Shown here piece after piece: positions 106-33,294 of a DNA stretch of 33,294 nucleotides. The stretch is from Gammaproteobacteria bacterium (GTDB lineage Bacteria > Pseudomonadota > Gammaproteobacteria > JAGOUN01): NCBI GenBank assembly GCA_018061255.1, contig JAGOUN010000013.1, forward strand, positions 1 to 33,294, given 5' to 3'. The translations under genes and the position numbers were made by a program. The stretch's first letter is position 1; each line of letters begins with the position of its first letter. The notes beneath the pieces are model-generated. The model was not told the origin of the DNA. It was given only the letters and a program-made list of their open reading frames with translations, and ran no database searches.

Positions 106-528
106 TTATTTAACAACCTTCAAATGCGACGCGCCTTTACTACCACCGCTATCATCGCCGTCTTTATTATCAAAATGCGATCTTGGCATTGGCTGCATGA
201 CCGGATGATCGTAATCTTCTTCGCTGATATCAAACATTTTTCCTTCGCCGTTTTCTTTAGCATAAACAGATAAAACCGCGATCATTGGAACATAAATATA
301 ATGCGTCACCCCAGAAAATTGGGTTCGAAAAGATAAGTAAGATTGATGAAAAACAGGATCTCGAATTGCCTGAGGCGCCATATTCAATACAATCTGGCCA
401 TCTCTGACATGCTCAGTGGGAATTTCAACATGATCGACAGTCGCATCTACCACAAGATAAGGGGTACAACCACTCTCAACTATCCATTTGTAATAGGCTT
501 CTACGACATACGCTTTAATGGGAAGCAT
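106..528 (-). CDS. sspB: ClpXP protease specificity-enhancing factor SspB
   Basis: SspB is a cytoplasmic adaptor that binds SsrA-tagged peptides and delivers them to ClpXP. The 140-residue protein has the family layout. A folded N-terminal part starts MLPIKAYVVEAYYKWIVE and holds the HVEIPTEHVRDGQIVLNM strand region. An acidic, flexible linker follows (roughly 110-132, DNKDGDDSGG). The short hydrophobic C-terminal tail ends LKVVK, matching the ClpX-docking tail of the family. The ATG at 528 has an AAGGAG a few bases upstream. It lies downstream of sspA in the same direction, as in E. coli, and is probably the last gene of the rplM-rpsI-sspA-sspB operon. Confidence 0.95.
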   Translation of the reverse strand: MLPIKAYVVEAYYKWIVESGCTPYLVVDATVDHVEIPTEHVRDGQIVLNMAPQAIRDPVFHQSYLSFRTQFSGVTHYIYVPMIAVLSVYAKENGEGKMFDISEEDYDHPVMQPMPRSHFDNKDGDDSGGSKGASHLKVVK

Positions 529-3888: not shown

Positions 3889-5511
3889 TCACTCCGCGGT
3901 CACCTGGTAAATCACCATCGTTTTACCAGGATGCAAAACTGATTTTTCCGTAATAGATGGATTCCATCGCTCAATTTCTTCTACGGAAACAGCAAACTGT
4001 TGAGCAATTTTCCCCAAGCTATCTTTAGCTTGAATCACATAATGTATTTTCTGTAATGTTTTACGTGCAGCGTTCTCAGTCGAAGTCACCTTAGGAGGAA
4101 TATTTAATTTTTGACCTATTTTAAGCGTATCTGACGATAAATTATTAAACGCTCGAAGATTTTTCCAGCTGACATTTAAGCTATGCGCAATACTTGACAG
4201 AGTATCTCCTTTACGTACACGATAAACCGTCTCAGGAGGCAGTGATAAAGGACGCGCTACCTCCTTTACGCCAACCGATGAGCTCTTGCTTAATACAGAA
4301 GTGGATGCCACATTTTTAGTAGCAGACTTCATAGAAGCAATTGGAGAGGCGTCAGAAACGCTTTTAGGCAATACATGTGCAGAGTTAGGAATAAATATCA
4401 CATCGCCCACGTGTATCAAGGTATCGTCTAGCTTGTTTACCTGCTGCAATACAGCCATCGAGGTATGATATTTTGTTGCAATCTTGCCTAGAGTATCTCC
4501 TGATTGAACATCATATCGCTCCCAAGTGACGCGATTACGCTGCGGCATCAAAGCTAGCCCTTCTCTCAACTGCGTTTCGTTTTGAATAGGAACAACAAGA
4601 AGAAAAGGGCCGTCAGGAGAGGTTGCCCAGCGATTAAATCCAGGATTGAGGTTCATTAAAGCATTTAAAGATAAACCAGAAAGGCTTGCAGCTTTTGCCA
4701 AATCAATTTGAGAACCAACATCAACTTGCGTTAAATAAGGCTTATTCGGAATCTCTGGCATACCCAAAGGATATTTCTCTGGATGTCCAATCATTTCCGC
4801 CAATGCCAATAGTTTTGGAATATACAGTTGCGTTTGTTTACCTAGCGGCAAAGACCAAAAGTCAGTCGCCTCACCTTTAGCGGTGTTTTTCTTAACCGCA
4901 TTAAGAATTGTACCCTGTCCTGCATGATAAGCAGCCACGGTAAACATCCAGTTGCCATGAAAAAAATTCTGTAAATAAACGAGATAATCCAACGCAGCGT
5001 TGGTCGAAGCAAAAACATCTCTGCGACCGTCATACCACCAAGTCTGCTTTAACCCAAAATCGGTTGCGGTTGCAGGCATCATCTGCCACAAGCCCGCGGC
5101 ACCTGAAGTGGAATAAGCAAAAGGATCATAGGCACTTTCAATAATCGGCAAAAGCGCAAACTCAAGCGGCAAATTACGCTTCCTAATTTGCGTTATAATG
5201 TAATACATGTAGGGGCGAGCATTGGTGGCAGCTGCACGGAGATATTTTCTGTGGGCCATAAACCATGCAATTTGCTCCTTAACTTCAGGGCGCTCAGCTT
5301 GATGATCTAAAGTAAATTCTTTTTGGAATACACGCCAGATGTCACCACTACTATCGACGGAAGGCTTGGCAACCTTAGCCATTGGCACTTCACTATGAGG
5401 ATAGACAACACGATATTCTGCTTTTGCCGGAGAAGAGGTCATCACAATAGTTAGACAAAAAAGCGCCCAAATATAGCAGCTTATTCTACTGATTTTTGCC
5501 TTTTTCTCCAC
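3889..5511 (-). CDS. mltD: Membrane-bound-type lytic murein transglycosylase D with three LysM domains
   Basis: MltD cleaves the peptidoglycan glycan strand to 1,6-anhydro products. Residues 1-31 look like a Sec signal peptide ending SPAKA before EYRVV. No lipobox Cys is visible, unlike the E. coli lipoprotein. The SLT domain covers about 100-240, with catalytic Glu125 in [10 protein letters not shown], then [19 protein letters not shown] and AYHAGQGTI. LysM repeats lie at about 333-376, 430-473 and 491-536, joined by Ser-rich linkers; they should bind peptidoglycan. The GTG start at 5511 has AAGGA nine bases upstream. It is divergent from the methyltransferase gene; gloB, which lies next to mltD in E. 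coli, is absent. Confidence 0.95.
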
Positions 5512-11917: not shown

Positions 11918-12054
11918 GGATAGGCACAAGGCGCCTCCCCTACACCGGCCAACGATTTATTTAACGATAACGAAATCATATTAGCCAATCAAATATTAAT
12001 AACGTTGAAAAATAAGACGACCTAGACCGTAGGGGCTGCGCCTTGTGCCTGCCC
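11918..12054. repeat. MITE-like palindromic element between the DsbA-like gene and fumC
   Basis: Terminal arms at 11918-11943 and 12029-12054 are inverted copies matching at 22 of 26 positions; the shared core is GGCGCCTTGTGCCT or a close variant, with CCCCTAC or GTAGGGG at the inner ends. The 85-base centre is AT-rich without a coding frame. The right arm is closely related to the sequence inside nuoG at 32554-32578, showing a dispersed family. Confidence 0.65.
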
Positions 12055-13545: not shown

Positions 13546-16135
13546 GATGCTCCTCCATATCCAGCGCTTTACTCACTGGCTCATAGACATTTTTAGATAA
13601 ATTCGGCGCGCTAATAATACGAGTTAATGCTTTTTGCATCAAGTCTTTACGTGGCGCAGCAAAACGTTGCCAAGCCAGCAAACACTCCACAATACGAGCA
13701 CTCACCATAGGATTAATGACATCTAAAGTTAACACGCATTCTGCTGCAAAGTGATACCCTTCGCCTGAGACATGATGAAAATTAAGCATATTGCTCGAAC
13801 AAAACCCACCGATTAAAGCGTAAACATTATTCGGATTTTTCAAATGGAAGAATGGCTGTTGCATTAAGCGTTGCACATTTTCAAGCGTGTCGGGTAATCG
13901 TGATTGCGCTTGAATCATAAACCACTTATTCATCACTAAGGGCTCATGCTGCCAACGATCTTGAAATTGCGCCAAGGCCTCAACGCGCTCTAAAGTATCG
14001 GTATGTGATAAAGCACTTAACGCAGCAATACTATCGGTCATATTGCCAGCAGTTTTAAACTGTTTAACCGCTAAATCAATATAAGATTTTTTATTCAACG
14101 CGACTAAGTGATGTAAGCATAATGCTTGTAATCGTCGTCGCCCCATTGCCTCGGGAGAATAGCCATTTTGATTGCTCACAAGAGACTCATATAATTTCAA
14201 CCAAGCTGCTTCGTGTTGCATCGCATTGTTTAAAAATAACTGCCAGCGTGCAGTTGAAATTTTATCAACATTAATTATTTCAACGCTTTCATGCAAATAT
14301 TTCTCAGAAGGAAGTTGTAATAATTCTGTTTGCATAGATAAGTCTGAAAAAGGTTGAAGAAGAATTTCACCAATAGCGTGTGAATAGTGTTCGTCAGACA
14401 TTCCCTCTAAAATAATTTTACTCGCCAGCCTCTGACCAGAGTCACAGCGATTAAAGCCGTCTGTATCGTACTTAAATAAAAACAACAATTCATCTTCGGT
14501 ATAAGAGAAATTTAATTTTATCGGCGCAGAAAAATGACGATTTAACGAAGGGATCACATCAACTTCAATGTTATCAAATACAAAAGATTGGAGGTTGCTT
14601 TCCAATAACACTGTTTTTTCAGATTCAACAAGGGCGACCGCAGTATCACCTCTACGTTTGCGCAGTAGCGAAGTCACGATAGGAATTAACATCGGCTGTT
14701 TATTCTGCATATCCGCCGTGGGCGGAACAATTTGCTCCATAGTTAACGTATAAGTTTTATTTACACTGTCATAGGTACCACTAGCATTCACCACAGGCGT
14801 GCCTGCTTGTGAATACCATAGTCGAAACTGTGATAAATCACGCTTTGAAACCTCTTCCATCACATCGATAAAATCGTTAGTCGTTACTGCTTGACCGTCA
14901 AATTTTTCAAAATAACGATCTGTCGCTTGACGAAAAACATCCGCGCCTAAAATCGTTTTCAACATACGAACGACTTCACCGCCTTTGTTGTAAATGGTTC
15001 TCGTATAAAAATTATCAATCGCCACATAGCTTTTGGGCTGAACAGGATGCGCCATTGGACCAGCATCTTCTGCAAACTGACCATTTCTCAAGTCCTGCAC
15101 CTTACGAATGCGATGCACCACTGCAGAATTATTATCTTCGTCATACGATTGTTCACGGAAAACTGTGAATCCTTCTTTTAGGCTTAGTTGAAACCAATCG
15201 CGACAGGTCACGCGATTCCCGCTCCAATTGTGGAAATATTCATGCGCTACCACGGTATCAACATCGGCATAATCTTGATCCGTTGCCGTTTCTGGATTGG
15301 CCAAAATATATTTAGCATTAAAAATATTCAGGCTTTTATTTTCCATAGCGCCAAAAATAAAATCATTTACTGCAACAATATTGAAAATATTTAAATCATA
15401 TTCTCGCCCATAATTTTCTTCATCCCAACGCATAGATTTTTTTAATGACAACATGGCAAATTCACAACGTTCGATATTTTGTTTCTCACTAAAAATATTC
15501 AGCGTCACCCTTCTGCCTGACATCGTGACAAAATAGTCAGTAATTTTCGCTAAATCCCCTGCCACTAATGCAAACAGATAACATGGCTTTTTGAAAGGAT
15601 CACGCCAAACAGCGAAATGCTTGCCTTGAGGAAGATCGCCCTCTTCAATTAAATCACCGTTGCTTAATAAAACTGGATAAGCTTGCTTATCCGCGATTAT
15701 TTTTACTTTATAAAAGGTCATGACATCGGGTCTATCAAGAAAAAAAGTGATCTTTCTGAAATATTCGGCTTCACATTGTGTGCAAAAAATATTATTAGAA
15801 ATATAGAGCCCTGTTAATTCTGTATTCGCGGCAGGATTAATTTCAGTCACAATTTTTAAAGAGAAAACCTCCGGCACATTAAAAATGTGCAAGCCATCGT
15901 CATCTTGTGAAAATTTAGGCACTTTTTCTTCAAGCACAATAGAAATAAGCTTGAGTTGCTTGCCGTCGAGAAACAAATGTTGGCTTGTTTTATCCAGACG
16001 ATGAACAACCAAATGACTTGTCACCAGCGTTTTTTCTGGAGTAAGGTCAAATTCTAAATCAACCTTTTCAATGACAAATGCGCTAATCTGATAATCCTTT
16101 AAAAACGTTTCTCTCTTTGTCGCTAAATTGGTCAC
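13532..16135 (-). CDS. pepN: Aminopeptidase N, M1 family zinc metallopeptidase
   Basis: PepN removes N-terminal residues from peptides in late cytosolic protein turnover. The 867-residue protein aligns along its length with E. coli PepN. The substrate-binding GAMEN is at 262-266, the zinc site HEYFH at 298-302 with the third ligand Glu321 in SLKEGFTVF, and the catalytic region [18 protein letters not shown] follows. The C-terminal helical domain is complete, ending in [11 protein letters not shown]. The GTG start at 16135 is used because no other Met lies close by; its ribosome binding site is weak. It is divergent from the ATPase gene at 16275. Confidence 0.97.
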
Positions 16136-22984: not shown

Positions 22985-23425
22985 CTTGAAGTAATTTTGA
23001 AGTTTCACTCACGTATGCCCCCTGTTGAATAATAATAGTGAAAGCAGTCGCTTTACTTTGGAATAGTCTCCATTTTTTTCTGCTCTTACAGAAGATTCAT
23101 GAAGAGAAATTGTTTGAGATTTTGACAAAACCAATTTAAATGATATCATTCATGTGTCACTTGTGTTTTTTGCAAATTGATTTTAAATCTTTTTTAAAAT
23201 CAATAAAATAGAAGGGACAATTTTTTTATTTTCATCAATCTAAAATTCCGCCCTGGCATGTCTTATAAATTATATAATCTTTAGAGAAGCGTCATTGCGA
23301 GTACTCGAAGCAATCTATCCGATTTTATATGGCAACTTCTAAAGCTTAAGAAAAGATGGATTGCTTCGAGTACTCGCAATGACGACAACTCAAGATTTTT
23401 TTTCTGAAGATCTATAAAAAATAGC
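22985..23425. other. Gene-poor AT-rich stretch between the transporter operon and nuoN
   Basis: No supported gene lies here. It holds an AT hairpin with perfect 12-bp arms (23176-23187 and 23193-23204, ATTGATTTTAAA and its complement, 5-base loop) and the long inverted repeat at 23290-23384. There is also a T7 run after a short TGGA..TCCA stem near 23059-23079. Unknown small RNAs cannot be excluded. Confidence 0.5.
23290..23384. repeat. Long inverted repeat, 30-base arms
   Basis: Arms 23290-23319 and 23355-23384 match at 29 of 30 positions in inverted orientation, around a 35-base spacer; each arm contains CATTGCGAGTACTCGAAGCA. RNA from either strand would fold into a very stable hairpin. 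Similar CATTGCGAG...GAAGCAATC palindromes are dispersed in many proteobacterial genomes. It lies just past the nuoN stop and could end the nuo transcript. Confidence 0.75.
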
Positions 23426-24991: not shown

Positions 24992-26497
24992 TTAAATAGA
25001 ATTAAACGCCAAACTATTACTCAACAAATGCCCTACTGAAGCATGTAATATTTCCAACAACCCTTGTGGATAAACCCCAATAAATATAATCGCTGCGGAA
25101 AGCAATCCAAAAACAAAAATCTCATGCGTACCAATATCTTTAAGCAACGTAACTTTATGATTAGTCATTTGGCCAAAGAATATTTTCTTATACATTATTA
25201 ACGTATAAGCGGCAGCAATGACTAAAGTTGTCGCCGCTAAAAGTGCGACGCCGAAATTAGTGTGAAACGCCGCCACAATCACCATGAATTCACCCACAAA
25301 ACCCGAAGTGCCTGGGAAACCTACATTCGACAATGCAAATAACATCATAAAAGCCGCAAAAATCGGCATTGTTTTTGCCAGACCACCCCAATCTTTGAGA
25401 TTACGACTGCCTATCCAATATTGCATCATGCCTACCGCTAAAAATAGCCCACCCGTGTTAAAAGCATGAGCAATCATTTGCACCACCGCACCTTCGAAAC
25501 TCATATATGCTTCATCAGACCCCATACTGTAGATCATAAAACATCCTAACACCGCAAAGCCCATATGCGCGATGGAAGAATAAGCCATTAGCTTTTTCAT
25601 ATCTTGCTGCACAAGCGCCATAATCCCAACATAAATGATCGCGATCAAGGCTAGTACCATCATCGTCGGCGCCATAATTTTATTAGCCATGGGCAAAATC
25701 GGCAGACTAAAACGCACAAAACCATATACACCGATTTTTAACATTAAACCCGCCAATACGACTGAACCCGCTGCAGGTGATTCGGTATGCATATCCAACA
25801 ACCAAGTATGCAAAGGCCATAAAGGCAATTTAATTGCAAAAGCAATAAAAAATGCAGCGAATAGCCACAGTTCAGTATGCCGCGGTAAAACAAGCTCATA
25901 AAATTTCGTAATCTCAAAACTATTCGTCACTTGGTGCAAATATAAAATAGCGACCAGCATTAACACCGAGCCCAAAAACATCAGGATAAAAAACTTGATG
26001 GCAGCATAAGCGCGCTGTTTATCGCCCCAAATACCAATGGCTAAATACATCGGAATTAACATCGCTTCCCAAAATACATAAAACAAAATAGCGTCAAGAG
26101 CAGCAAACACCCCTATCATCATGGCTTGGGCAATAAGAAATACCGCCATGTATTGTGCAATATTATGCTTCACCAGTTTACAACTCGCTACGACAACAAT
26201 AAACGTCGTAAACGCCGTTAATAAAATCAGCGCTAAAGAAATTCCATCTATCCCTAAAGCATAGTGAATACCATAAGTTGGAATCCAATTGCGTACTTCT
26301 TGGAACTGCATCGCATAAGAGTTGGTATCAAAATTTTGATACAAAGGAATGCACATCAGCAATTCGGCTAATGAAGCGAGTACTGCCCATTTTTTTATAA
26401 TCGATTCAGGATAAAACTTATTTCCAAATAATAATAGGCATGCAGCGACTATCGGCCACCAAATTAACATGCTTAACAATGGAGTATTTTCAAACAT
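24992..26497 (-). CDS. nuoM: NADH-quinone oxidoreductase subunit M
   Basis: A second antiporter-like proton-pumping subunit of complex I. The 501 residues form about 14 membrane helices. Glu144 in FYVFWEAMLIPMYL coincides with the essential Glu of E. coli NuoM, and IKLPLWPLHTWLLDMHTESP carries Lys223 and His230. KLMAYSSIAHMGF and HAFNTGGLF follow in the second half. The 166-base gap to nuoL contains a palindromic repeat (26534-26620). Confidence 0.97.
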   Translation of the reverse strand: MFENTPLLSMLIWWPIVAACLLLFGNKFYPESIIKKWAVLASLAELLMCIPLYQNFDTNSYAMQFQEVRNWIPTYGIHYALGIDGISLALILLTAFTTFIVVVASCKLVKHNIAQYMAVFLIAQAMMIGVFAALDAILFYVFWEAMLIPMYLAIGIWGDKQRAYAAIKFFILMFLGSVLMLVAILYLHQVTNSFEITKFYELVLPRHTELWLFAAFFIAFAIKLPLWPLHTWLLDMHTESPAAGSVVLAGLMLKIGVYGFVRFSLPILPMANKIMAPTMMVLALIAIIYVGIMALVQQDMKKLMAYSSIAHMGFAVLGCFMIYSMGSDEAYMSFEGAVVQMIAHAFNTGGLFLAVGMMQYWIGSRNLKDWGGLAKTMPIFAAFMMLFALSNVGFPGTSGFVGEFMVIVAAFHTNFGVALLAATTLVIAAAYTLIMYKKIFFGQMTNHKVTLLKDIGTHEIFVFGLLSAAIIFIGVYPQGLLEILHASVGHLLSNSLAFNSI

Positions 26498-26533
26498 TAC
26501 CCTAAATCCTCAAGTAAACTCAATTTTGTCAAT

Positions 26534-26620
26534 AACAATAACGACTGGGGCGTTGATAAGATTTACTCCCCTCACCCCTACCCCTCTCCCGGAGGGAGAA
26601 GGGCTCCAATCGCTATTGTC
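26534..26620. repeat. Palindromic repeat in the nuoL-nuoM spacer
   Basis: The outer arms 26534-26551 and 26603-26620 are inverted copies (AACAATAACGACTGGGGC against GACAATAGCGATTGGAGC, 14 of 18). An inner hairpin is formed by CCCTCTCCC and GGGAGAAGGG. It belongs to the same family as the element at 30544-30600, which has the same inner CTCCC/GGGAG core and the same TATTGTC end. Confidence 0.7.
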
Positions 26621-26663
26621 TTTTTCAGATCCTAAACTTTTTTATCCGCTATCAAGAGAAATA

Positions 26664-28637
26664 TTAACTAACGAAAAAAATCAACATCAACAAAACAAAC
26701 AACCCACACACCATACTTAATGCATAGCGCCCAACAAATCCTGAATGCAACTGTCGCGATACTTTTGATAAATGCATCCAACGCGCTGCAACTCCATTCA
26801 CCCAAAAACCGTCTATCCATTTCATATCGATCACTTGATAAGCAAATTGTCCTAACTTATTAGCGCCTTTGACAAATACTTGCTGATTGAATGCATCAAA
26901 TCCGTATTTAACCATTAATAATTGGTAGAAAATTCCAAAATACTGTTTTATGCGAGCTGCCGCCTTTGGCTGAATAAGATAACAATAAACCGCACATACT
27001 ATCCCAGCGATCGTCACCCAAAACGACGCGGTTTTTACAGAAAGCAACGTCATCTCAAGAGCCCCATGAAATTCGGATTGCATAGTGAATAACACATCGC
27101 GCCCGGGTAATAAAAATAATGCATCGCCCAAAATTGAGGGGGTTTGATACAGCAATGGTGTAATCGTCATTGCACCTAAAATAATTGAAGGAATAGCAAG
27201 AACGATTAATGGCACTATCACTACCCATGAAGATTCTTTCACGTGTAAATGTTTTGTATCAAAGCGACTCGCGCCATGAAAAGTTAAGAAAAATGCTCTA
27301 AACGTATAAACAGCGGTAACGAATACCCCTAACAGTGCGCACACATAAGCAAAAGACGCGCCAGGAACCATCGACGCATGCACGGCTTCAATAATACTAT
27401 CTTTAGAATAAAATCCTGCGAAAGGAGGAATCGCAACTAATGCCAAAGCACCAATTAAAAATGTCAGCCAGGTGATGGGCATACGTTTCCATAATCCTCC
27501 CATGCGACGCATATCTTGTTCGTGATGCATGCCCAAAATAACCGATCCCGCAGCAAGAAAAAGTAAGGCCTTAAAACAAGCATGAGTAAACAAGTGAAAT
27601 AATCCAGCCGCATAAGCGGTAGAGCCTACGCCCATCATCATATAACCCAACTGAGACAAGGTTGAATAAGCAATCACTCGTTTAATATCATTTTGTACAA
27701 TCGCAATTAATCCCATGGATAAAGCTGTCATAGCGCCCAAGACCAAAACAATACTTAGTGCTGTGCTTGAATATTCCAAAATTGGTGACATGCGACATAA
27801 CATATAAACACCCGCTGTCACCATGGTCGCTGCGTGAATCAACGCAGAGATCGGTGTTGGGCCTTCCATCGATTCCGGCAACCACACATGCAAAGGCACC
27901 TGTGCAGATTTTGCTGCCGCGCCAATGAACAACAATATGCTCATCACGGTCATCAAAGAAAAAGATACGCCAGGATAAAACTGAATCATCTCAGAAGACT
28001 TGCTCGCCGCTTGAGAAAAAATCTCTGCGTAATCAGCAGAACCAAAATAAACAATCGCACAGGCTATTGCTAATAAAAAGCCAATATCCCCAACGCGATT
28101 CACAATAAACGCTTTCAAACCGCCTAAAACCGCAGATTCTTTTTCATACCAGAAACCAATCAACCAATAAGAGACAAGCCCCACGCCTTCCCAACCAAAA
28201 AATAGCAGAATAAAATCATTTGCCGAGACTAAACATAACATCGCAAACGTAAATAAAGACATGTAACTAAAAAAACGTTGATTGCTACTATCATCTTTCA
28301 TATAGCCAATACTATAAACATGCACGAACAGTGAAACGAACGTGACAACCAACATCATCGCCACCGTGAGATGATCCACCAGCAAGCCAATCTTTAAATG
28401 ATATTTCCCTGAGATCGCCCAAGAGTACAGTGAAAAGACTTGTTTAGGCGCTTGGTCACATAAAATCGTTTTAAATAAAAGTAATGAAGCAACAAAACTA
28501 AGGCCCATCAAACTAATCGTGACCACATGTGCGCCACGCTTGCCAATGTTTTTTCCAAAAATTCCAGCGGTCACGCCTCCTAATAATGGCGCTAAAAGCG
28601 TGATTAACATGAGTGTTTTAATTGAGATTAACATCAA
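26664..28637 (-). CDS. nuoL: NADH-quinone oxidoreductase subunit L
   Basis: The distal antiporter-like subunit of complex I; its C-terminal amphipathic helix runs along the membrane arm. The 657 residues include Glu150 in FFGWEGVGLVSYWLIGFWY, and AAKSAQVPLHVWLPESMEGP with Lys243 and His250, then PISALIHAATMVTAGVYML. The lateral helix falls in the last 150 residues, ending with a final membrane segment (YALSMVCGLFVLLMLIFFV). It starts two bases after nuoK ends. Confidence 0.97.
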   Translation of the reverse strand: MMLISIKTLMLITLLAPLLGGVTAGIFGKNIGKRGAHVVTISLMGLSFVASLLLFKTILCDQAPKQVFSLYSWAISGKYHLKIGLLVDHLTVAMMLVVTFVSLFVHVYSIGYMKDDSSNQRFFSYMSLFTFAMLCLVSANDFILLFFGWEGVGLVSYWLIGFWYEKESAVLGGLKAFIVNRVGDIGFLLAIACAIVYFGSADYAEIFSQAASKSSEMIQFYPGVSFSLMTVMSILLFIGAAAKSAQVPLHVWLPESMEGPTPISALIHAATMVTAGVYMLCRMSPILEYSSTALSIVLVLGAMTALSMGLIAIVQNDIKRVIAYSTLSQLGYMMMGVGSTAYAAGLFHLFTHACFKALLFLAAGSVILGMHHEQDMRRMGGLWKRMPITWLTFLIGALALVAIPPFAGFYSKDSIIEAVHASMVPGASFAYVCALLGVFVTAVYTFRAFFLTFHGASRFDTKHLHVKESSWVVIVPLIVLAIPSIILGAMTITPLLYQTPSILGDALFLLPGRDVLFTMQSEFHGALEMTLLSVKTASFWVTIAGIVCAVYCYLIQPKAAARIKQYFGIFYQLLMVKYGFDAFNQQVFVKGANKLGQFAYQVIDMKWIDGFWVNGVAARWMHLSKVSRQLHSGFVGRYALSMVCGLFVLLMLIFFVS

Positions 28638-29999: not shown

Positions 30000-30490
30000 T
30001 ATCGATACTCCGCATCGGATTGTCGCGCTTTCGCAATGTCTTTTTCATAGCGATCGCCAACAGCCAATAATTTTTCTTTGGTCATAATATTTTCGCCACG
30101 ATTTTCAAAGTGATAATGCATCAACGAAGTTTCCACAATGGAATCGACGGGACATGATTCTTCACAAAAACCGCAAAAAATACACTTAAACAAATCTATT
30201 TCATAACGCGTTGTGCGACGTTGGCCATCACTTTCGCGTGGCCCTGCTTCTATCGTAATCGCTAATGCAGGACAAACCGCTTCGCATAATTTGCACGCAA
30301 TACAACGTTCCTCGCCATTCGCATAACGTCGTAAAGCATGTAAACCACGAAAACGCACTGACGTTGGTGCGGTTTCTTCAGGATACAGCACTGTGGTTTT
30401 ACGGCGCCAAAAATAAACCCCGGTCAACCGTAACCCCACGAGTAATTCCCATAAGGTAAAGCTTTTGATGTATTGTTTTAACACTTTCAT
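29999..30490 (-). CDS. nuoI: NADH-quinone oxidoreductase subunit I
   Basis: A peripheral-arm subunit that carries clusters N6a and N6b on the electron path to quinone. The two [4Fe-4S] motifs are complete: Cys63, 66, 69, 73 in [12 protein letters not shown] and Cys103, 106, 109, 113 in [12 protein letters not shown]. The 163 residues are typical for this group, slightly shorter than the E. coli protein. The stop overlaps the DUF4160 start. The gap to nuoH (124 bases) holds a palindromic repeat. Confidence 0.97.
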
Positions 30491-30543
30491 TCTATTCTCA
30501 TATCATACTTTAATATCTATTCAATACTCATGAAATACACCGT

Positions 30544-30600
30544 AACAACAGCGACTGAAGCCCTTCTCCCTCCGGGAGAGGGGCTTCAATAGTTATTGTC
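30544..30600. repeat. Palindromic repeat in the nuoH-nuoI spacer
   Basis: The arms 30544-30563 and 30581-30600 are inverted copies, 15 of 20 matching, with the inner pairing GCCCTTCTCCC and GGGAGAGGGGC around a 3-base loop. Same family and same orientation as 26534-26620. It begins about 54 bases before the nuoI start on the message. Confidence 0.7.
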
Positions 30601-30614
30601 ATAGCAGATTTTCT

Positions 30615-31637
30615 CTAAAACCAAGGCCCCACTTTAAAATATATCGCTAACGCAAGGACAATAATCCAGACCAATGCCACTGGAATCAATACTTTCCAAC
30701 CTAATGCCATAATTTGGTCATAGCGATAACGTGGAAACGTTGCACGCATCCACAAATACATGAGTAAGAAAAACCCCATTTTCATTACCAGCCAAACAAC
30801 GCCTGGAACAAATGCAAACCATTCACCAAGATATGGCACATGCTCAAAAGGAGAAAGCCATCCGCCTAAAAACATCAAGGCTGCTAATGCCGAAATTAAA
30901 ATCATATTGGCGTATTCTGCCAAGAAAAACAGTGCAAAACGTATGCCAGAATATTCCACATGAAAACCTGCGACAATTTCAGATTCACCTTCTGCGACAT
31001 CAAACGGCGCGCGATTCGTTTCTGCAACACCAGAAATCCAATACACAATCATCAAAGGAAATAAAGGCAAGGCATACCAATGCCAAATGCCGCCTGCTTG
31101 CGCCATCACTATTTGACTAAGATTCACTGAACCCGCCGCCATCATTACCCCGACTAAGGCAAAGCCCATCGCAATTTCATAAGAAATGGCTTGCGCTGAA
31201 GCTCTTATCGCACCATACATTGCATATTTAGAATTAGACGCCCAACCCGCAATTAAAACGCCATAAATACCCAACGAGGTCATCGCTAATACATATAACA
31301 AACCTAAATTAATATTCGCGATCACCCAGCCTGAATTCACCGGAATCACTGCCCAAGCAGAAAGTGCCGTACCAATGCTAATCATCGGCGCAATGATAAA
31401 TAGAAATTTATTCGACGCAGTAGGAATAATGAGCTCTTTTTGCAACATTTTTAAAACGTCAGCGAAAGGTTGTAATAATCCTTTAAAACCCACACGATTA
31501 GGACCCAAGCGCCCTTGCATATAGCCAATGACTTTACGTTCTGCATAAGTTAAATAGGCAACGCTTAAAATCACTACGATAAGTAGCGCTAAAATTTTAA
31601 TGACTAACCAAATTAATGCAAATAGTGCTTCTAACAT
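30615..31637 (-). CDS. nuoH: NADH-quinone oxidoreductase subunit H
   Basis: The membrane subunit that forms most of the quinone-binding cavity at the junction of the two arms of complex I. The 340 residues have about eight helices. Signatures are [20 protein letters not shown], the [20 protein letters not shown] loop, [40 protein letters not shown] and [20 protein letters not shown], with the conserved acidic residues present. It overlaps the end of nuoG by seven bases. Confidence 0.97.
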
Positions 31638-33294
31638 TTTATAATCTCTATATAACCCGATGCATTACCTAACTGCGCCGCAAGTGTTGTTCCCCCTGCA
31701 ATAAACACAGCGCCAATTGCTACTTGATTGTTGATGGCAATTTCACTTGACACAAGTGCTTCATCTTGTTTGATCTGTACTGCTTGTCCATCAATCAATT
31801 GCAATTGATTGGCCGTTTCTGCATGAATATGCACAGCTTCAAAACGAGTTTCAACTGCGCGTTGATTTAATGCGCGCGCACGACGAACCAAACTATCTGA
31901 GCGATAATCTGGCCAGGCGGTGATGCGTTCTAATTGGTTTACATGTGGCATCACAGCGGACGACTGGCCGGTAGCTCCTACATATTGCAGTCGCGAGTGG
32001 ACGTCGGGGCTGCTGACCTGTTGTCTTTCTTGATAGTCTAATGATTTCAATATATCTTCGCTGCTTTCAAAATCAAATGCAGGCACATCCAATAAATTTC
32101 CTAACACGCGATAAATCTTCCACCCTGGTCGCGCTTCACCTTTAGGCGCAACACATCCCGAAAATGAATGTTGTTCGCCAGCAAGATTAATGAACGTTCC
32201 AGAAGTTTCAGTAAACGCCGCGCAAGGTAGTAAAACCTTCGCCACTTTTTTTAAGTTTTCACTGACAAAAGGCGTCACTGCAATAACCATATCAGCGGAT
32301 AATAAGTTTTGCTGCAATTGATCTGGATTCGCCACATCGTATTCAGGTTCAATACCGTGCAATAGATAGGCTTTCATTGGTAAATGGCTTCTTTCTGCTG
32401 GCGCACTGACTTGATAGCATCCTACCGCATTAGCACCTTCGGGCAATTGCGCGAAAATGCTTTGTGTATCAGTAGCAAATTTATTTAATAAAGATTGAAT
32501 GATGGATGCATCGGGATGGTTTAATGCGTTTTCACCCATGATGATTAGGGAATGTAGGGGCAGGTCTTGTGCCTGCCCTTCACGAATTGCAGCAACAAAT
32601 TCAGATGGCTTAACAATTGTTTCGCTGGCTAAATCAAAATGATATGGATGTTTTATCATATCAATCACATGCACTTTTGCGCCTTTCAATGCCGCTTTAC
32701 GCACAAGATGCGCTAAAATCGGTTGGTCATTTCTGAGATGACTCCCCACCAACACAATCGTTTGCTGATTTTCGATTTCAGCAATTGGGATATTTAATCC
32801 GGGTACAACAGTTAATCTGGGATCTGTTTGACGCAAATTATAATTAATTTGTGAACTTTCTAGATGCCGCCATAAACGCTTAATTAAATAAGCTTCTTCT
32901 AAGGTACTGTTAGGGGATATTAGTGCGCCGATTTGATTAGCCCCATGCGCCGATTTGATTTTTTCCAATGCATTCGCAACGAAATTCAACGCAACTGGCC
33001 AAGTGACTTCGCGCCACTCTCCCGTTTCATCTTTGATACAAGGTTGGGTTAATCGATCTTGATTCAAGCCTTCATAACTGTAACGATCTCGATCTGAAAT
33101 CCAAGTTTCATTAATTGTTTCGTTTTCTCTTGCAGTCACCCGCATCACTTCACCGCGACGAGTATGCACAGACAAATGTGATCCAACACCATCATGCGAT
33201 GCAATACTGTGATAAGCTTTTAATTCCCATGCACGTGCTTTATATAGAAATGGTTTGGATAACAATGCGCCAACAGGGCATAAATCAATAATAT
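31631..33294 (-). CDS. nuoG: NADH-quinone oxidoreductase subunit G, 5' part outside the window
   Basis: The largest peripheral-arm subunit, with several iron-sulfur clusters and a molybdopterin-oxidoreductase-like domain without cofactor. The frame is open to the right edge; the first visible residues are [15 protein letters not shown], with the end of an N-terminal cluster motif. The TTG at 33265 is an internal codon, not the start. The Mo-domain is seen in [20 protein letters not shown] and [20 protein letters not shown] and in [20 protein letters not shown] near the middle. The segment GQAQDLPLH is encoded by a dispersed palindromic repeat. The protein ends at GYIEIIKC. Confidence 0.95.
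32554..32578. repeat. Palindromic repeat inside the nuoG coding region
   Basis: The 25-base sequence starts GTAGGGGCAGG and ends TTGTGCCTGCCC; GGGCAGG and CCTGCCC pair as a 7-bp stem. It is nearly the same as the right arm of the element at 11918-12054, with a few differences. The nuoG frame passes straight through it. Confidence 0.65.

Follow-up and report, generated by a model that had tools for sequence, protein, structure and literature searches.

A GTAG-type REP translated in frame within NuoG of a gammaproteobacterium, with signs of gain by codon replacement

Introduction

How did a short palindromic repeat come to be translated as part of the complex I protein NuoG, and was it added to the protein or exchanged for residues that already stood there? 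This question is raised by positions 32554-32578 of the window, i.e. the whole 33,294-nt stretch of gammaproteobacterial DNA (contig JAGOUN010000013.1) that was analysed. A first-pass annotation had seen there an in-frame insertion similar to those of Rickettsia palindromic elements, which add tens of residues to proteins. In this study, the locus was compared across the source genome of the window (G000), a 98%-identical congener (G002) and the next relative (G001). The reading that we consider likely is that the segment is a copy of a GTAG-type REP that reached nuoG in the ancestor of G000 and G002, was gained by replacement, now encodes a loop between a helix and a strand, and probably has no function.

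Results and discussion

The repeat in nuoG and its family

The features at this end of the window are:

32554-32578, plus strand: A-type GTAG REP monomer in nuoG (from its sequence, its copies in the genome, stem covariation and an exact twin)
32554-32557: GTAG head of the REP
32558-32565 with 32571-32578: stem of the REP
32566-32570: loop of the REP
31631-33294, minus strand: 3' part of nuoG, cut at the contig end, 553 codons (complex I NuoG by Foldseek)

The plus strand at 32554-32578 reads GTAGGGGCAGGTCTTGTGCCTGCCC. On the minus strand the 25-nt repeat is GGG CAG GCA CAA GAC CTG CCC CTA C, which encodes GQAQDLPL and supplies the first base of the next H codon, directly after EFVAAIRE; the REP thus corresponds to residues 239-247 (GQAQDLPLH) of the 553-codon NuoG fragment. 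This frame matches TIGR01973 with an E-value of 4.5e-81 for the cut window fragment, and the full-length orthologue of G002 matches it with an E-value of 1.7e-183, above the cut-off. The 25-mer has an exact second copy at G000:C60:3866-3890, and the earlier description of a dispersed palindromic repeat translated within NuoG proved correct in its coordinates and its reading frame.

The repeat unit is 25-27 nt long and consists of an unpaired GTAG head, an 8-pair stem and a 5-nt loop. Among 24 distinct monomers, A3 of the head is invariant and T2 and G4 are conserved in at least 90%; 93.2% of 192 stem cells are paired and 3 of the 8 pairs are changed on both sides. None of 500 shuffles reached the observed number of paired cells or the covariation score, and shifting the partner by 1-3 columns left a pairing of only 20.8-59.5%. 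A covariance model made from these 24 monomers found at least 23 copies in G000 and at least 46 in G002, numbers that are lower bounds because the model scored 150 of 548-565 candidates. No copy was found in G001 with the model (150 of 328 candidates scored) or by pattern search. A strict gapped pattern gave 7 matches in G000 (0 when read backwards), and a looser one detected 14 copies in G000 and 28 in G002 (reversed control, 0). The suggested search of the genome did reveal further copies inside and outside genes. One intergenic locus of the window carries two units in inverted orientation:

11918-11943, minus strand: REP, left arm of the intergenic dimer, degenerate (26.5 bits)
12029-12054, plus strand: REP, right arm of the intergenic inverted dimer (pattern, covariance model)

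The nuoG segment had been matched to the right arm of this dimer; both are units of the same kind, but the right arm is one base longer and differs in the loop-proximal part of the stem. Dimers with an interior resembling that of window 11918-12054 lie at G002:C79:53917-54053 and C51:13190-13324, and inverted dimers are also present in the E2 linkers of G002 described below. The family therefore shows the traits of the GTAG REP superfamily, namely the GTAG head, the size and stem (20-40 bp, a 5-13 bp stem and a short loop), dispersal, copies that are mostly extragenic near gene ends, and inverted dimers; the segment at 32554-32578 is a GTAG-type REP of ~25 nt.

Other palindromes reside in the same genome. 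These are a B-type REP family, GTAGGGGCGACC..GG[TC]CGCCC (a label coined here), and the unrelated palindromes CGTCATTGCGAG, CCCTCTCC... and CAGCCTACGCTGGCATGAC, the last of which, with up to 3 mismatches allowed, matches at 34 places in G000, at 28 in G002 and at 1 in G001 (control, 0). Within the window, a B-type REP lies at 73-96, just beyond the end of ORF 106-528 (minus strand), and 23290-23384 is an inverted pair of CGTCATTGCGAG elements that are 97% complementary.

NuoG of the relatives and the predicted structure

At 98% identity, the NuoG of G002 retains the REP, in which 1 of 25 bases is changed (L for P, in the 5' stem arm). Since the nuoG REP is present in both G000 and G002, it is older than their split. 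The NuoG of G001 (57% identical) is without the REP and carries an unrelated segment of the same length, the stretch from KPS to SLIIMG comprising 17 residues in the REP-bearing proteins and in G001 alike. Relatives had been expected to be 9-12 residues shorter, and this did not hold for G001, the only alignable REP-free relative. More distant NuoGs (33-40% identical) cannot polarise the site, because they have about 33 extra residues in the REP region of the alignment. Among 84,980 species scanned, 12 NuoG loci were found, none of them between 56% and 98% identity, and searches of the genus, family and order returned the same 3 genomes at every rank. Because relatives in this range of identity are lacking, NuoG is not polarisable further.

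The structure model of the NuoG fragment (12 sequences, mean pLDDT 73.2, pTM 0.76) places a loop between helix 229-239 and strand 249-252. Residues 239-247 are therefore predicted to be essentially a loop, in a region where the local mean pLDDT is 80 for residues 231-240 and 69 for residues 241-250. By Foldseek, the fold belongs with NuoG chains of complex I and with formate dehydrogenases, and the site lies in the molybdopterin-like domain, as the first-pass annotation had suggested.

REPs in other genes

In-frame REPs were found in nine protein families besides NuoG, i.e. MutL, TruB, PDH E2, YgfZ, NadE, RfaF, TsaC, uracil-DNA glycosylase (UDG) and a GltB-like protein. Copies in frame in identified genes account for 4 of 23 in G000 (nuoG, truB, mutL and the PDH E2 gene) and 12 of 45 in G002 (nuoG, truB, mutL, E2 with three units, ygfZ, nadE, rfaF, tsaC, and the genes for the family-4 UDG and the GltB-like protein). 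The G002 tally covers 45 of 46 matches, with C19:17350 left out, and the gene counts exclude REP-containing ORFs without family support, including those of 102, 142, 100, 170, 134 and 371 aa. Long ORFs terminate at the TAG of the GTAG head in 6 of 23 copies in G000 and 7 of 45 in G002. Cysteine frames were absent from 13 A-type coding units, which would have a probability of 0.0013 were five open frames used equally, but this apparent preference was not kept as evidence, since such frames do occur among B-type REPs.

In PDH E2 both inter-lipoyl linkers are in-frame REP units, whose type and arrangement differ between the sister genomes:

G002:C41:2987-3407 (L108): PDH E2 linkers
G000:C50:9726-10118 (L074): PDH E2 linkers

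The MutL linker of G000 likewise contains a CGTCATTGCGAG-type dimer that is read in frame. Repeat-encoded peptides have been taken up by core enzymes (complex I, PDH E2, MutL, TruB).

Replacement or addition

A clean insertion of 24-27 nt would predict a gain of +8 to +9 residues. Compared with REP-free G001, the net changes (in residues) in six single-REP genes are:

NuoG: 0
RfaF: +2
TruB: +4
GltB-like: +4
YgfZ: +4
TsaC: -5

MutL and E2 linker 2, with repeats of two kinds, are outside this list, and E2 linker 1 is given apart below. In G000 no orthologue of NadE, RfaF or UDG was found, and in G001 none of NadE, while the UDG frame of G001 is without its N-terminal part; the sites in these three genes are outside the comparison of the sisters.

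At two loci the direction of the change can be read. In the GltB-like protein, a 9-residue native segment common to G000 (TYTKFSNEA) and G001 (SDKKISHEA) is replaced in G002 by a 13-residue REP-bearing segment, and in TsaC the native stretch after LRPGMI, common to G000 and G001, is lost in G002, where the REP stands. As far as sequence comparison goes, these two loci show polarised replacement, with one close comparison each. Replacement rather than addition is held with moderate confidence, because there are two such cases, each with one close comparison, and loop indels are common. For NuoG, taking one relative at 57% identity as the reference, we infer that the REP replaced about 8-9 native codons and was not added to them; ordinary indels could change the length of this loop, and the G001 protein itself might have acquired residues. 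The parallel with Rickettsia elements drawn at the outset thus stands in so far as the repeat is translated in frame. It fails as a simple insertion, as the G001 segment has the same length and other genes show native residues replaced, and the element is a GTAG REP of ~25 nt, outside the 100-150 bp and the tens of added residues of the Rickettsia elements.

Sites that differ between the sister genomes

Nine A-type sites are present in one sister with both flanks located in the other. They are listed with the genome carrying the REP and with what stands in the other sister:

GltB-like (G002): native or unrecognised sequence
C9:10727 (G002): native or unrecognised sequence
TsaC (G002): CAGCCTACGCTGGCATGAC
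C41:23981 (G002): CAGCCTACGCTGGCATGAC
YgfZ (G002): B-type or B-like
E2 linker 1 (G002): B-type or B-like
E2 linker 2 (G002): B-type or B-like
C26:10797 (G000): B-type or B-like
C51:11715 (G002): CCCTTCTCC...GGGGAGA palindrome

This list is a non-random sample, in which 6 of 12 G002 flank pieces matched G000 (one of the six, C9:15874, is a copy present in both sisters and lies at the end of a contig). A different repeat occupies the site in the sister in 7 of 9 cases. At 18 shared sites, in contrast, most flanks are conserved, and 14 of the 18 are without a difference within 10 nt of the REP. The sisters have the first unit of E2 linker 1 in common and differ in the second alone, and a second spot in MutL has a B-like unit in G002 versus a CGTC dimer in G000. 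Duplicated flanks, as expected of a MITE, were not noticed in an unsystematic look at the polymorphic tracts shown.

Several further observations concern this part of the comparison. CGAGTACTC, which is also the core of the CGTC palindrome, adjoins the REP of the GltB-like gene (G002 L109 around 4744-4752) and may be left over from an earlier repeat or be there by chance. In the nuoI/nuoH spacer (window 30481-30617) CCCTCTCC palindromes lie in a 137-nt tract where G002 has an unrelated 15-nt tract, and in the nuoL/nuoM spacer (window 26498-26687) they lie in a 190-nt tract versus an unrelated one of 27 nt in G002. In G002 nuoH and nuoI appear to overlap; the nuoH/nuoI spacer of G001 was rejected as a comparison, as it is not syntenic. 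Between nuoN and nuoM, G002:C23 (L120 about 14155-14313) has a 158-nt palindrome-rich insertion versus 3 nt at window ~24992-24996. This insertion looks clean, and its visibility means that clean insertions are detectable by the comparison of sites.

The last point bears on the alternative of a clean in-frame insertion of the REP into nuoG, either with small deletions arising separately afterwards or with a matching insertion acquired independently on the G001 side. Published work speaks of intragenic REPs as inserted (PMC3733652), TsaC of G000 looks like a case in which another repeat was added and the native stretch kept (+4), and the E2 linkers exceed those of G001 by +10 and +14 for two repeat units. 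A change of +8 or +9, however, was seen in 0 of the 6 single-REP genes, and 0 of the 9 polymorphic sites is cleanly empty in the sister, though the method reveals the clean nuoM/nuoN insertion; we regard a clean insertion as rather unlikely.

Recombination with a diverged relative, bringing in a short tract with the REP, could account for extra differences beside some repeats, e.g. at the nuoI start codons, and for a GltB-like region that is 82% identical over 136 nt. Flanks are, however, nearly identical right up to many tracts. The NuoG flanks of G000 and G002 differ at the background rate and no donor is known, and such an import is considered improbable.

Under replacement, the preferred reading, REP DNA would enter a single-strand gap or break, flanking bases would be lost in the entry event itself or in later hairpin repair, and selection would retain in-frame outcomes only, in loops and linkers. 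Tentatively, and with more doubt than conviction, this may be extended to unrelated palindrome families being swapped at fixed loop or linker sites of genes, each gain replacing native codons or an earlier repeat, probably through hairpin breakage repaired with another repeat; protein loops would then be rotating docking sites for repeat DNA. Clean insertion and excision are usually assumed for IS200/IS605-like transposition, and if gains replace codons, these are not the whole story of REP spread. The two sister genomes, 97-98% identical and differing at many REP sites, a part of which lie in protein loops, provide before and after alleles.

Candidate movers

No transposase with matching REP flanks was found in the 3 genomes, whose assemblies are incomplete. 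PF01797 has 1 match in these genomes, G000:C40:12012-12338 (L033:1156-1866). This C40 gene encodes an IS200-like, RAYT-like Y1 transposase with several AAATCAAGGGGTCAGAT repeats in inverted orientation around it, and reaches 66.2 of 80 bits with the REP_Tyr_transpos model, below the NCBIfam cut-off. A RAYT as the mover was rejected, since the one Y1 transposase gene seen, that of G000, has repeats of another kind, AAATCAAGGGGTCAGAT, at its borders; in these incomplete assemblies a REPtron, i.e. a RAYT bordered by the NuoG-type REP, was not found.

Function

The peptide and the hairpin in NuoG are probably without function, tolerated and near neutral. At 18 shared sites 26 of 456 REP bases differ (5.7%), versus 258 of 6497 bases 201-400 nt away (4.0%), and this similarity of the drift to that of the flanks argues against strong constraint. 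The NuoG mRNA around the REP folds no better than shuffles (z -0.84), and its ordinary stability, together with the flank-like drift, makes a function in NuoG unlikely. The hairpin is nearly intact in both sisters, with one change in the 5' stem arm, and for E. coli, REPs close to the ends of genes have been described as able to reduce translation (PMC12306157); the copy is, however, absent from the NuoG of G001 and has no Rfam match at an E-value of 1, so that regulation of nuoG mRNA or translation by the hairpin, or action of the peptide in complex I, is regarded as very improbable. Chance resemblance of nuoG codons to the repeat, of which an unrelated segment of the same length in a REP-free relative had been proposed as the sign, is practically impossible even though G001 has just such a segment, because the 25-mer has its exact twin on C60, against a chance expectation of about 3.5e-9 exact matches in G000, the covariance model gives the NuoG copy an E-value of 3.9e-7, and a REP in the E2 linker of G002 encodes a near-identical peptide, GQAQDLPLQ.

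Comparison with known systems

The NuoG REP is real and ordinary in kind, and its added interest lies in the pattern of replacement and swapping. REP/RAYT systems and REPINs (PMC2817692, PMC3116915, PMC8266576) have the same REP architecture and a presumed single-strand DNA mobility; they differ in that here no RAYT flanked by the NuoG-type REP was found and the Y1 gene has other inverted repeats. How REPs spread is described as unsettled (PMC8266576). Rickettsia palindromic elements (PMC3767692) are likewise palindromic repeats in frame in protein genes, and orthologous Rickettsia genes may carry different repeat groups near one place, as here, for which hotspots or a common origin have been offered; they measure 100-150 bp, versus 25 nt, ~8 codons and a net change of 0 in NuoG. 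QMITE2 of Coxiella burnetii (PMC5896051) is also a gammaproteobacterial GTAG REP-bearing repeat, found at gene 3' ends where it provides stop codons, but it is 150-190 bp long, has direct repeats and occupies gene ends, in contrast to the internal loops described here.

The closest likeness is to the GTAG-tagged REPs (Di Nocera et al. 2013, PMC3733652), which likewise have a GTAG head and a short stem-loop, are dispersed, form inverted dimers, occur within genes (including truB and genes for DNA repair) and supply through their head the TAG stop of neighbouring genes. Their sequence and hosts are different, and they are described there as insertions, whereas the lengths reported here point to replacement. 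Judged by titles and abstract openings, the papers listed by the literature searches made here include no report of REP gain by codon replacement. Intragenic REPs and REP-given stop codons have thus already been published, and what is new here is the host, the host genes and the pattern of replacement.
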